This document shows, piece after piece, positions 18,389 through 29,600 of a DNA stretch of 36,090 nucleotides (the first letter of the stretch is position 1; the number at the start of each line of letters is the position of its first letter). Under the pieces are notes generated by a model, which saw nothing but the letters and a program-made list of their open reading frames with translations, did not search any database and was not told the DNA's origin. Source of the DNA: Dehalococcoidia bacterium (GTDB lineage Bacteria > Chloroflexota > Dehalococcoidia > Bin125); NCBI GenBank assembly GCA_022822375.1, contig JAJEBU010000008.1, positions 1 to 36,090 on the forward strand. The letters run 5' to 3'. Position numbers and translations under genes: made by a program.

Positions 18389-20356
18389 ATGCGCGTTCGG
18401 CTGTCGGTTCTGGGGGTGTTCATGGCGCTGATGGCAGCGGCCGTGTTCGGCTGCTCCAGCGAGGAATCGCAGCCGCAACAGCAGCAGCAAGCGCAACCCC
18501 AGCCACAGATGCAGACACAGACAGTTGTCCAAGCCGATCAGCCAGAGCAACAGGCCCAACAGACGCAACAGGCCCAACCAGCGCCGCCGTCCGAGCCCGA
18601 ACCGCAAGCCCAACAAGAGCAGCCCGAAGCAGCGCCGACCCAGAACGAGGCGCCGCAGCAGGACCAGCCGCAGCAGGACCAACCTGAGCAGGAGCTGCCC
18701 GCCCCAGAGTCCGAGCTCACCATTGGCGGCGAGCGCCCAGCGACGCTGCGTCTGCCGGTTGACGCCGACCGCTCGCTGCCGCGTCCGCTGATCGTGCTGC
18801 TGCACGGATACAGCAGCAACTCGCGAGAGGTGGACGGTTACTTCCATTCCTCGAACTGGGTTGAGGCAGGCGGCGCTGGCGTGCTGATCCCCGACGGCGT
18901 CGTCGACCTGATCGGCAACCAGTCGTGGAATGCGACGCCGGAGTGCTGCGATTGGACGGACGAGGTCGACGACGTTGAGTACATCACCTTGCTCATCGAA
19001 GAGGCGCGCACACATGCGAGCTTTGATCAGGTCTTCGCCGTCGGACACTCCAACGGTGGGTTCATGTCGTATCGCCTCGCCTGCGAGGCGGTGCCAGGTT
19101 TGACGGGCATCGTCAGTCTCGCCGGCGGACCGTTCGCCGATCCCGATCTCTGCCGCGTGCCCGAGCCGCTCTCGGTGCTCCAGATTCATGGCTCGAACGA
19201 CCGCGTCGTCCTCTACGACGGTGGACGGCTGCCCGACGTTCCCGATCCCGACCGGGCGGCGGTGCCCGGTGCCGTCGACACCGTCTTGCGCTGGGCAGAT
19301 CGGGCAGGCTGCGACCTGCAGGCGGGCGAGGCGCTGCTGCCGATTGACCTCGACGCCAACCTGGCCGGTGACGAGACATCGGTGAAACGCATGATCAATG
19401 GCTGCGCTGACGATGTGAAGGTCGAGCTATGGACCATCGAGGGCGGATCGCACGTGCCGTGGGTCTTTGGCACAGACTTCTCGCTGGCGATTCTCCACTG
19501 GATCGAGAGCGTCTACGAGGGCGACCTGGAAGCGCGCGGTTTCTCGGAGCCGGCGATTGCCAAGATTGGGATCGGTGGCGATCGGCCGACGGCGCTGCTC
19601 GTCCCGACCGGGGCCGAGGCACCGTTGCCGCTGATCGTGTCGCTGCACGGATACAGTGGCGACGCGTCGACGCACGACTGGTACTTCGGCCTCTCGCAAC
19701 GCGCGGAGGCGTACGGCTTCGCCTTGATCACGCCGCAGGGAACGTCCGACGGTCGAGGCCGCGCGTTTTGGAACGCGACTGACTACTGTTGCAACTTCGA
19801 TGGCTCGGACATCGACGATGCGGGGTACATCACGTCGCTCATCGACGAGGCGCGCGAACACGTGGATGTCGATCGCGTCTACGTGGTCGGGTACTCCAAC
19901 GGCGGGTTCATGGCGTACCGCCTGGCCTGCGATGGTCTTGACGGGTTGGCCGGTATCGTCAGTCTGGCTGGGTCGTCCTTTGGCGACGACACCCGTTGCG
20001 CGGACGCGCCTCCCGTGTCAGTGCTCCAGATTCACGGCACGGCTGACCTCGACATCCCCTACGACGGCACAATGGGACAGGGGTACTCAGCTGAGTATCC
20101 GGGCGCGGTCGCGTTGGCCGAGCGCTGGGCGCAGCGAGCCGGCTGCAATCTCGATGCACTGGAGGTGCTCGCGCCGATCGACCTCGACGAGATCGTCGAG
20201 GGCGCGGAAACGCGCGTCCAGCGCTATGCCGACGGCTGCGCAGATGACGTGATCGTTGAACAGTGGACGCTGGACGGGGTCGACCACTCGCCGTTCTTCT
20301 CGGACGACTGGCCCGATCATCTGCTCGGCTGGCTGCTGGGTTCTCGGGCCGGCTAG
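18389..20356 (+). CDS. Lipoprotein with two PHB depolymerase/feruloyl esterase-like (LpqC) domains
   Basis: A 655-residue exported lipoprotein. The signal peptide is 1-21 with lipobox VFGC and lipidated Cys22. A Gln/Pro/Glu-rich linker spans about 28-105. Two alpha/beta-hydrolase domains follow (about 108-375 and 390-650), both of the LpqC/carbohydrate esterase 1 type. Domain 1 has HGYSSN, nucleophile Ser221 in GHSNGG, Asp271 and His355. Domain 2 has HGYSGD, Ser503 in GYSNGG, Asp553 and His633. Both triads look complete, and each domain carries a WNAT..CC segment with paired cysteines. It probably hydrolyses esters of polymers or plant phenolics outside the cell. It overlaps the next gene by one base. 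Confidence 0.9.
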   Translation: MRVRLSVLGVFMALMAAAVFGCSSEESQPQQQQQAQPQPQMQTQTVVQADQPEQQAQQTQQAQPAPPSEPEPQAQQEQPEAAPTQNEAPQQDQPQQDQPEQELPAPESELTIGGERPATLRLPVDADRSLPRPLIVLLHGYSSNSREVDGYFHSSNWVEAGGAGVLIPDGVVDLIGNQSWNATPECCDWTDEVDDVEYITLLIEEARTHASFDQVFAVGHSNGGFMSYRLACEAVPGLTGIVSLAGGPFADPDLCRVPEPLSVLQIHGSNDRVVLYDGGRLPDVPDPDRAAVPGAVDTVLRWADRAGCDLQAGEALLPIDLDANLAGDETSVKRMINGCADDVKVELWTIEGGSHVPWVFGTDFSLAILHWIESVYEGDLEARGFSEPAIAKIGIGGDRPTALLVPTGAEAPLPLIVSLHGYSGDASTHDWYFGLSQRAEAYGFALITPQGTSDGRGRAFWNATDYCCNFDGSDIDDAGYITSLIDEAREHVDVDRVYVVGYSNGGFMAYRLACDGLDGLAGIVSLAGSSFGDDTRCADAPPVSVLQIHGTADLDIPYDGTMGQGYSAEYPGAVALAERWAQRAGCNLDALEVLAPIDLDEIVEGAETRVQRYADGCADDVIVEQWTLDGVDHSPFFSDDWPDHLLGWLLGSRAG

Positions 20357-25978: not shown

Positions 25979-26023
25979 CCACACCTGACACCGCGCACCA
26001 CGACACATGGTCGGAGGCGAATG

Positions 26024-26797
26024 ATGGGCAAACTCGATGGCAAAGTCGCGCTGATTTCCGGCGGCGCTCGCGGACAGGGAGAGGCCGAGGCACGGCTGTT
26101 CGCTCGCGAGGGCGCGGCTGTCGTACTGGGCGATGTGCTCGAGGAAGACGGTCGACGGGTCGCCGAGAGCATCATCGACAGCGGTGGACAAGCCACCTTC
26201 GCCAAGCTCGATGTCTCCGACCAATCGAACTGGGCCGAATTGATCGACCTCACGGTCGAGACCTATGGCCGACTGGACATCCTGATCAACAACGCCGGCA
26301 TCGCCCGCTTGAAGATGATTGAGGACTCCTCGCTGCAGGAGTACCTGGAGGTCATCCGCATCAACCAGGTCGGTGTCTGGTTGGGCATGCGCGCGGCGGT
26401 CAAGCCGATGAAGGAAGTCGGCGGCGGCTGCATCATCAACACCTCGTCAACCGCCGGGCTCGAGGGCTACGCCGGCCTCAGCGCCTACGTGTCGTCCAAG
26501 TTTGCCGTGCGCGGGATGACCAAATCGGCCGCCGTTGAGTTTGGGCCGTACAACATCCGCGTCAACTCGGTGCACCCTGGTCCGATCGACACGCCGATGA
26601 TCCGCGATCCGGAGATTGCCCGGCGTCCGGCCGACGACTTCAGCTTCGACGGACCGATTCCGCGCCTCGGCACGTCCGACGAGGTGGCCAGGATGATGCT
26701 CTTCATCGCCGCTGACGCCTCCTACAGCACTGGCGCCGAGTTCGTCATCGACGGCGGGCTGACCATCGGCGGCAACATCGGCCAGCTGATTGAGTAA
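26024..26797 (+). CDS. Short-chain dehydrogenase/reductase, first of a tandem pair
   Basis: A 257-residue classical SDR. The glycine motif SGGARGQG is at 12-19, NNAG at 89-92, and the catalytic residues are Ser142, Tyr155 and Lys159 (YVSSK). Asp37 after the second strand suggests NAD(H). The sequence type (GARGQGEAEARLFAREGA, HPGPIDTPM) is that of 3-alpha/20-beta-hydroxysteroid dehydrogenase-like enzymes. Of the two adjacent ATG codons, the second (26024) is chosen: GGAGG lies six bases upstream and the tandem paralogue starts at the same residue. It lies 45 bases after the dioxygenase stop. Confidence 0.92.
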   Translation: MGKLDGKVALISGGARGQGEAEARLFAREGAAVVLGDVLEEDGRRVAESIIDSGGQATFAKLDVSDQSNWAELIDLTVETYGRLDILINNAGIARLKMIEDSSLQEYLEVIRINQVGVWLGMRAAVKPMKEVGGGCIINTSSTAGLEGYAGLSAYVSSKFAVRGMTKSAAVEFGPYNIRVNSVHPGPIDTPMIRDPEIARRPADDFSFDGPIPRLGTSDEVARMMLFIAADASYSTGAEFVIDGGLTIGGNIGQLIE

Positions 26798-26835
26798 TCC
26801 AGCAGCAGTTCAACGGACTAGACGCGGAGAATCCC

Positions 26836-27600
26836 ATGGGACAGCTCGACGGCAAGGTCGCCATCATCTCAGGCGGCGCACGTGGACAGGGCGAGGCCGA
26901 AGCTCGGCTGTTTGCTCGTGAGGGCGCGGCAGTCGTGCTCGGCGACATCCTCGATGAGGACGGCCAGCGGGTCGCGGAGAGCATTATCGATGCCGGCGGT
27001 CAGGCCGCCTATGTCCACCTCGACGTGACCAGCGAGACCGACTGGAGCGACATCGTCGACCAAGCCGTGGCCGAGTTTGGCCGCGTCGACTTACTGCTGA
27101 ACAACGCTGGCATCCTGCCGGTCGCGACCATCGAGCAGGCGACGCTCGAACACTTCCGCGAGGTGGTGGATGTGAACTTGATCGGCGTGTTTCTCGGGAT
27201 CCGCTCGGTGATTCCGGCGATGCGCGAATCCGGCGGCGGATGCATCATCAACACATCCTCAACCGCAGGCATTCAGGGCTACCCCGGTTTGGGCGCATAC
27301 GCGTCGAGCAAGTTTGCGGTGCGCGGACTGACCAAGGTCGCTGCTGTGGAGTTGGGCGCTGACAACATCCGCGTCAACTCGGTCCATCCAGGCCCGGTCG
27401 ACACCGAGATGCTGGCCAACCCCAACGCGAAGCGGAACGAGCAGGGCGATCGGCCGATGAGGATTCCGATCAGCCGCATGGGCCGCGCCGATGAGGTCGC
27501 CAAGATGATGCTCTTCATCGCCGCCGACGCCACCTACAGCACGGGCGCTGAGTTCATCATCGACGGCGGCCTGACCGCGGCCAGCAACATCGGTCGCTAG
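26836..27600 (+). CDS. Short-chain dehydrogenase/reductase, second of a tandem pair
   Basis: A 254-residue paralogue of the preceding gene. It aligns without gaps over the first 160 residues and keeps all catalytic positions (Ser142, Tyr155, Lys159 in YASSK). The two differ mainly in the substrate loop after HPGPVDTEM, where this copy has LANPNAKRNEQGDRPM. This points to a local duplication followed by a change in substrate. GGAGA lies six bases before the ATG. The 3' end is seven bases from the convergent VOC gene. Confidence 0.92.
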   Translation: MGQLDGKVAIISGGARGQGEAEARLFAREGAAVVLGDILDEDGQRVAESIIDAGGQAAYVHLDVTSETDWSDIVDQAVAEFGRVDLLLNNAGILPVATIEQATLEHFREVVDVNLIGVFLGIRSVIPAMRESGGGCIINTSSTAGIQGYPGLGAYASSKFAVRGLTKVAAVELGADNIRVNSVHPGPVDTEMLANPNAKRNEQGDRPMRIPISRMGRADEVAKMMLFIAADATYSTGAEFIIDGGLTAASNIGR

Positions 27601-28396: not shown

Positions 28397-29542
28397 CTAC
28401 GGCGTGGCGTTCTCGACAGCGGCCGTGATCGAGCTGAGTCGCGTCCCTGCGTTCTTCTCATTCACGAATACGGTCGGCGTGAAACCAACGCCAGCACTTC
28501 GAGCTGCGCTGAATTCTTCGTCGATTCGGTCCCGATGAGTCCCCTCAACCATGCACTGCAGGAACTGATCGTCGTCGAGGCCAATCTCTTCGGCGTACTC
28601 GAATGCTCGGCTTCGCGACCCTCGCATCGCGTCGCTGGTCATGTACTCGTCGTGGAACTGCCAGAAGGCGTTGCCACTCTGGTCGGCGGCGCACTCCATC
28701 GCCTCGGCTGCGAAGCCTGAATTCGTATGGGCCGGATAGTGTCGGAACTCAAACCGAGCTTGTCCGGTTCTGACCAACTGTTCAATCACGAGCGGCTCGG
28801 ACCGAGCCACCCAGCTGCGACAGTTTGGTCAATAGGGGTCACCGTATTCAGCGATCAACACCGGTGCGTCAGGATTGCCAATCACGTTGCGGTCGACGAC
28901 CAGTCCGTCGCGATGTCCGCCGCTGATCCGTTCGACGCTGCTCTCGTCGGCGTCGGAACCACCATCGTCGGCATCTGGCGGCGATGTGGCGCCGCTGCTG
29001 TCCTCAGGCTGATCAGATTGGCTGCTTTGGTCCGATTGGTCAGGCTGATCGTCTTGTTCGGGCTGCTCTGCTTGCTCAGCTTCGGGCATGGACTCGGGCT
29101 GGGGCGCCCACACGGTGACCGGCGTGCTCACCAACCAACTGCCAACGGTCGCGTCGGTCGGGAAGTAGCGCTGCCGCGGAAGCGTCGGCCGGCGATCGCC
29201 TTCGGGTCTGACCCCAAACTCAACGCGACCGTCATCCAGTCGTCGAGCAGCGATCTGGACCTCGGCGCCGTTGCTGAGCGTCAGTTTCGACGAATACGTC
29301 CAGCCAGTCGGACCGTCGTCGGCTGGGAAGAATCGGGCACGAGGTTCGAGGATGCCGCTCGGCGTGCGCAGCGTGAACTCGACGCGTCCATCGGCGAGCG
29401 CTCGCGCACGCACCCGGACTTGTTCGTGATCGGTCGCGTTCTGCGCGTCGATGACAACGACGGCCAACAACGCCATCGCAAGCGGTGCAATGACGAGCAG
29501 TGCCAATCGCTGCCACATGCTCAGGGGCGTCGTACGGCTCAT
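28397..29542 (-). CDS. Membrane-anchored DsbA-like thioredoxin-fold selenoprotein (Sec at in-frame UGA)
   Basis: A 381-residue protein if the UGA at 28829-28831 is read as selenocysteine 238. A membrane anchor (about 11-31) is followed by two similar beta repeats of about 50 residues (43-90 and 95-144, each with DGRVEF and an RxRxFP/RQRYFP turn). A Gln/Asp/Ser-rich linker (148-205) leads to a DsbA-type thioredoxin domain (214-381). The redox motif reads Sec238-P-N-Cys241 after AEYGDPY, where relatives have C-P-x-C. The helical insertion (FWQFHDEYM) and the cis-Pro loop (T355-P356) follow in the same frame, so both halves are well conserved. A SECIS-like hairpin lies immediately downstream of the UGA. 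Likely an extracytoplasmic thiol oxidoreductase or disulfide isomerase. Standard annotation would split it into two ORFs. Confidence 0.85.
28789..28813 (-). promoter_or_regulatory. Bacterial SECIS-like hairpin
   Basis: On the minus-strand mRNA, bases 16-40 after the UGA form a contiguous 10-bp stem (28813-28804 with 28798-28789, three G-U pairs, upper five pairs all Watson-Crick). The 5-base apical loop is GGUCC, at 28803-28799. The loop G-G-U lies 26-28 bases after UGA, inside the spacing known for bacterial SECIS elements, and the E. coli fdhF element also has GGUC in its loop. It should recruit SelB and selenocysteinyl-tRNA. Confidence 0.75.
28829..28831 (-). other. In-frame UGA, predicted selenocysteine codon
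   Basis: TGA on the minus strand at codon 238 of the DsbA-like gene. It occupies the first position of the C-x-x-C redox motif (U-P-N-C), the site where Sec replaces Cys in known redox selenoproteins. The flanking halves share one frame and one fold. Confidence 0.85.
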
Positions 29543-29567: not shown

Positions 29568-29600
29568 CGAAGGGGCGGAGCCGTTCGCCCCGCCCCTTCG
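29568..29600 (-). terminator. GC-rich hairpin downstream of the LLM monooxygenase gene
   Basis: Arms 29568-29578 and 29590-29600 form a perfect 11-bp stem with an 11-base loop. It lies 31 bases after the stop of the monooxygenase gene at 29632 and upstream of the selenoprotein gene on the same strand. No T-run follows, so termination may be partial or factor-assisted. Confidence 0.55.

Follow-up and report, generated by a model that had tools for sequence, protein, structure and literature searches.

Selenoproteins of the DsbA-like and DsbG-like kinds, which share a UxxC motif, have been known since 2005, when they were found in data from the Sargasso Sea (PMC1088965); they were found in genomes in 2006 (PMC1794560), and later reviews list them (PMC9312934, PMC13188914), the DsbG-like entry in the former giving a family, a motif and a representative accession. 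A table in the accessible portion of a 2016 survey, as its columns were read, records DsbA-like proteins in 41 organisms and 45 genes (PMC5029168). The nearest curated model to the gene described here is NCBIfam NF041057, the 'Rcas_1661 family thioredoxin-like (seleno)lipoprotein'. Here we analysed a 36,090-nucleotide stretch of Chloroflexota DNA (the window) and predict from its sequence that positions 28397-29542 form one gene, seemingly cut by a stop codon, for a membrane-anchored, selenocysteine (Sec)-containing DsbA-like redox protein, with a probability of about 97% for its identity as a selenoprotein.

The initial annotation described two same-frame halves separated by one TGA at codon 238, which holds, and left the strand unstated; the gene lies on the minus strand, and translation of the plus strand over the same interval does not contain the selenoprotein. 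The upstream half (29542 to 28829) comprises 237 codons ending in ...LIAEYGDPY directly before the TGA (28831-28829), after which the same frame runs on as PNCRSWVARSEP... to a TAG at 28397. With TGA translated as Sec, the product has 381 residues, U238 and zero further stops, reads ...VLIAEYGDPY-U-PNCRSW... around the Sec site, and is matched in length and architecture by its orthologues. The proposals that the UGA occupies the place of the first Cys of a C-x-x-C motif and that the downstream half keeps its cis-Pro loop without other stops were likewise borne out, as Sec238 opens a U-P-N-C motif, the printed alignment with PDB entry 4pwp sets C-P-x-C opposite it, the frame is open, and a T-P at residues 355-356 of the DsbA domain forms the putative cis-Pro loop. 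The features of the gene are collected in Table 1.

Table 1. Predicted features of the selenoprotein gene, in window coordinates.
Feature	Position	Strand	Remarks
Complete selenoprotein gene	28397..29542	(-)	381 codons + TAG; TGA = Sec at codon 238; open throughout
UGA codon for Sec238, position 1 of U-P-N-C	28829..28831	(-)	same column in homologues
SECIS hairpin	28792..28810	(-)	8-bp stem GTGGCTCG/CGAGCCGC, GTC apical loop
Hydrophobic N-terminal membrane anchor, ~residues 9-35	29438..29518	(-)	from sequence; no lipobox Cys
Two tandem beta repeats, ~residues 40-146	29105..29425	(-)	repeat also in other proteins of the genome
Acidic Gln/Asp/Ser-rich linker, ~residues 147-204	28931..29104	(-)	from sequence; length varies among orthologues
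Thioredoxin_4/DsbA domain, residues 219-367	28442..28888	(-)	PF13462 match

The assembly that contains the window (2.72 Mb in 158 contigs, 95.6% complete) encodes the machinery for Sec insertion. All four genes that the initial annotation had proposed looking for, selA, selB, selC and selD, are present: a tRNA-Sec with anticodon TCA (UCA) scoring 66 bits, SelA (E 4e-123), SelB (345 bits over the cut-off) and SelD (350 bits). The SelD gene (L081, G000:C110:7468-8409) in turn has an in-frame TGA, in NCGG-U-GSK, which makes SelD another predicted selenoprotein; this is the Sec site known from other SelD proteins. Within the window, an Rfam scan at the gathering threshold gave no matches and a tRNA search found none.

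To place the TGA in an evolutionary context, the read-through protein was searched against 61 relatives, the assemblies compared being drafts of metagenome type. The fused gene occurs in 13 of the 15 genomes of the genus (G000, G001, G002 and G004-G013), each time with exactly one TGA, and the fused orthologues form one clade in the tree (support 100/97); a GenBank Dehalococcoidia bacterium relative also carries an orthologue, 67% identical over the best segment. Among all homologues, 71 distinct TGA sites fall on the same single alignment column, at which ten Cys homologues from the class have TGC or TGT. The column thus holds Cys or Sec without exception and never Trp or Gly, as would be expected from the Sec assignment made in the initial annotation. 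Comparison with the nearest relative, L019 (identical to L033 over the gene and counted once with it), gave a pN/pS of 0.25 after the TGA (Jukes-Cantor-corrected dN 0.10, dS 0.54) and of 0.48 before it. The value after the TGA indicates that the translated tail is real coding sequence under purifying selection. In all fused orthologues the frame closes 143-145 codons past the in-frame TGA, in several of them with a further TGA at the conserved C-terminus, so this lineage uses TGA as a stop codon too. Paralogues that lack the beta repeats are clustered in tandem in 14 of the 15 genomes, usually three or four together, and each has one TGA. In the window's own genome, one such cluster (G000:C100:4468-6852; L020:4200-6910) contains three tandem Sec-DsbA lipoprotein genes with the motifs U-G-I-C, U-P-H-C and U-G-N-C, one TGA each, and all three products start with a lipoprotein-like signal with a lipobox-like sequence.

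Downstream of the UGA we identified a hairpin, an addition to the initial annotation, which named none. Its placement is fixed in the genus family, with 18 nt from the UGA to the start of the stem and 26 nt to the apical loop, which reads GTC or GGT, in agreement with the bacterial SECIS rule of a small apical loop containing a G (PMC1088965). Across 64 distinct sequences, 93.9% of stem cells are paired, a share that drops to 27-39% on sliding the 3' side, and both sides are changed in 15 cells, compared with a mean of 1.4 in shuffles, none of which reached 15; kinship of the sequences inflates both the pairing and the covariation counts. The window gene is one of the cases with changes on both sides: it has CGG TCC (Arg-Ser) in place of the CAG GTT (Gln-Val) of most relatives, an exchange that converts the closing pair from A-U to G-C and keeps it paired. 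In the ten Cys homologues, only 1-4 of the 8 stem pairs can form and the hairpin is absent. The six most distant Sec homologues are mostly not in the exact register (1-7 pairs), and their hairpin, if present, lies elsewhere.

In the C-terminal part, PF13462 (Thioredoxin_4) matches with an E-value of 9.3e-28 and 97.9 bits, well above the curated cut-off of 23.2, PF01323 (DSBA) matches partially (31.3 bits, residues 274-363), and sequence matches in the PDB place DsbA and BdbD nearest (3e-11 to 9e-10; e.g., 4pwp, 3gha and 3f4r). No Pfam family covers the beta repeats in the same search. This repeat, RVRARALADGRVEFTLR...RFFPT...GSWLVSTPVTV, is found in about seven further places of the window's genome and in many proteins of the genus. 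Gln-rich low-complexity stretches resembling the linker of the selenoprotein also lie at 82-300 and 18389-20356 of the window, near the N-termini of other apparently exported proteins. An AlphaFold model built from a two-sequence alignment is of low confidence (mean pLDDT 47), with a helix at residues 9-35, beta-repeat strands reaching a pLDDT of about 70-79 in places, and a DsbA domain that is not resolved.

Judged by these sequence features, and leaving the direction of electron flow aside, the protein is very probably a Sec-containing extracytoplasmic thiol-disulfide oxidoreductase. SelB carrying Sec-tRNA(UCA) would bind the hairpin 18 nt downstream of UGA238 and the ribosome would then read this codon as Sec, a step for which both the sequence and its comparison among relatives speak. 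By established thioredoxin-fold chemistry, the Sec238 selenolate of U-P-N-C would be the attacking nucleophile and Cys241 would resolve the selenenylsulfide. The beta-repeat stalk and the acidic linker may hold the DsbA domain off the membrane surface, and a transmembrane protein of the CcdA/DsbD type may recharge the Sec protein in a reducing or isomerising direction. Each of the 15 genus genomes encodes a DsbD_TM/CcdA-type protein, the putative conduit of a reductase system; in the window's genome its gene (G000:C58) does not adjoin the selenoprotein gene. VKOR was found in none of the 15, despite several DsbA-like proteins in the genus, and a search of the window's own genome for DsbB found none, so that neither of the partners expected of a DsbA oxidase was recovered in these searches. 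This distribution moderately favours a reductase or isomerase over an oxidase, and we give action in the reducing or isomerising direction an even chance. It is also possible that the CcdA-like protein is dedicated to cytochrome c maturation and that oxidants not yet known take the place of DsbB and VKOR.

The alternative that survives best, a possible but doubtful one, is a DsbA/BdbD-like oxidase that makes disulfides in exported proteins and relies on an unknown recharging partner. It would fit the solved structures nearest by sequence as well as the single domain, which lacks the dimerisation domain typical of DsbC and DsbG, but it is at odds with the partner distribution just described, and an exchange of Cys for Sec usually makes the redox potential lower. 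Less probable is that the 237-residue product ending at the UGA, with its anchor and beta repeats, is functional in itself and that readthrough is minor or selenium-regulated: the upstream half does constitute a complete anchored beta-repeat protein, the repeats occur elsewhere without a DsbA domain, and UGA recoding in E. coli is given as only 30-40% efficient in the accessible part of one report (PMC4513850), but selection is weaker upstream of the TGA than downstream, which indicates that constraint acts more strongly on the Sec domain. A pseudogene, nonsense mutation or sequencing error, which in a single genome would look just like a lone TGA in an open frame, is refuted by the recurrence of the TGA at the same codon in 13 independently assembled genomes and in the paralogues, as well as by the downstream purifying selection, the SECIS hairpin and the Sec machinery, and general recoding of TGA to another residue (such as Trp), for which nothing was found, is likewise rejected as very improbable since several fused orthologues use TGA as a true stop and homologues have Cys at this position, in no case Trp or Gly.

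Returning to the reading of the gene as a selenoprotein gene, we also considered how it might fit into the physiology of the genus. One speculative picture, which we consider unlikely to hold as a whole, is a selenium-dependent extracytoplasmic thiol-redox system composed of the beta-repeat-anchored Sec-DsbA protein and, in most genomes, the tandem Sec-DsbA lipoproteins, fed with electrons by CcdA in a lineage that lacks the oxidising VKOR/DsbB branch, in which termination at the UGA under selenium limitation would leave a bare beta-repeat stalk. The genomic neighbourhood is conserved in the order luciferase-like monooxygenase, selenoprotein gene, two glyoxalase-like genes and short-chain dehydrogenase/reductase (SDR) wherever the orthologue contigs reach, and these neighbours do not reveal a pathway or point to a Dsb pathway. 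Among relatives, the monooxygenase keeps 92-98% identity; for the Sec protein the figure is only about 41-47% once its closest relative is set aside, indicating that the Sec protein evolves fast. Two similar SDR genes stand in tandem at 26021-27600 of the window, a pair that is found in L019 too. A GC-rich sequence at 29568-29600, between the monooxygenase and selenoprotein genes, forms a strong inverted repeat, CGAAGGGGCGG...CCGCCCCTTCG, that has no T run and may act as a terminator or a processing site.

Because standard gene callers break up this gene and its paralogues into truncated pieces, the redox proteomes annotated for these genomes are probably wrong. If they are expressed as predicted, four of the five Sec proteins seen here would be exported thiol oxidoreductases, an unusual selenoproteome for this Dehalococcoidia-related genus of Chloroflexota. 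Because Sec and Cys homologues coexist in the same class, the question of what an extracytoplasmic DsbA-like enzyme gains from Sec can moreover be posed cleanly here.

The architecture had been considered unfamiliar in the initial annotation, and our searches agree to the extent that they returned no match for it: in the literature on selenoproteins in Chloroflexi/Chloroflexota or SAR202, or on Rcas_1661, no paper could be identified as describing this protein. The Sec DsbA-/DsbG-like UxxC kind, however, is known. With the DsbG-like selenoproteins (PF13462; PMC1794560, PMC9312934) the window protein has the Pfam domain and UxxC in common, and the available portions of these papers do not mention a fusion to an anchored beta-repeat stalk. 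The DsbA-like selenoproteins (PF01323/COG2761; PMC1088965, PMC5029168) likewise share UxxC, a bacterial SECIS element and Cys homologues with it, but the window gene sits on the Thioredoxin_4 side of the superfamily, its PF01323 match being the partial one. Homology to the DsbA/BdbD proteins of known structure is detectable over the whole domain, but these have Cys instead of Sec and other N-terminal parts. NF041057 comes closest, covering residues 153-363 (E 1.4e-34); its score of 119.8 bits falls short of the cut-off of 190, so that the window protein is a relative and by NCBI's rule a non-member. At least two of the three tandem lipoprotein-like Sec paralogues in the window's genome match the same model. 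Relatives under this model are common in 201 Chloroflexota genomes, some with one TGA; in most of them the matched stretch contains no stop. The window protein differs from the modelled family in that it has no lipobox (no Cys precedes residue 238) and in that an anchor-like N-terminus and two beta repeats precede its linker. Thus, Sec insertion follows the standard mechanism, while the combination of anchor, beta repeats, acidic linker and Sec-DsbA domain, confined to one Chloroflexota genus in our sample, appears undescribed, and the tandem Sec-DsbA lipoprotein paralogues are new here.
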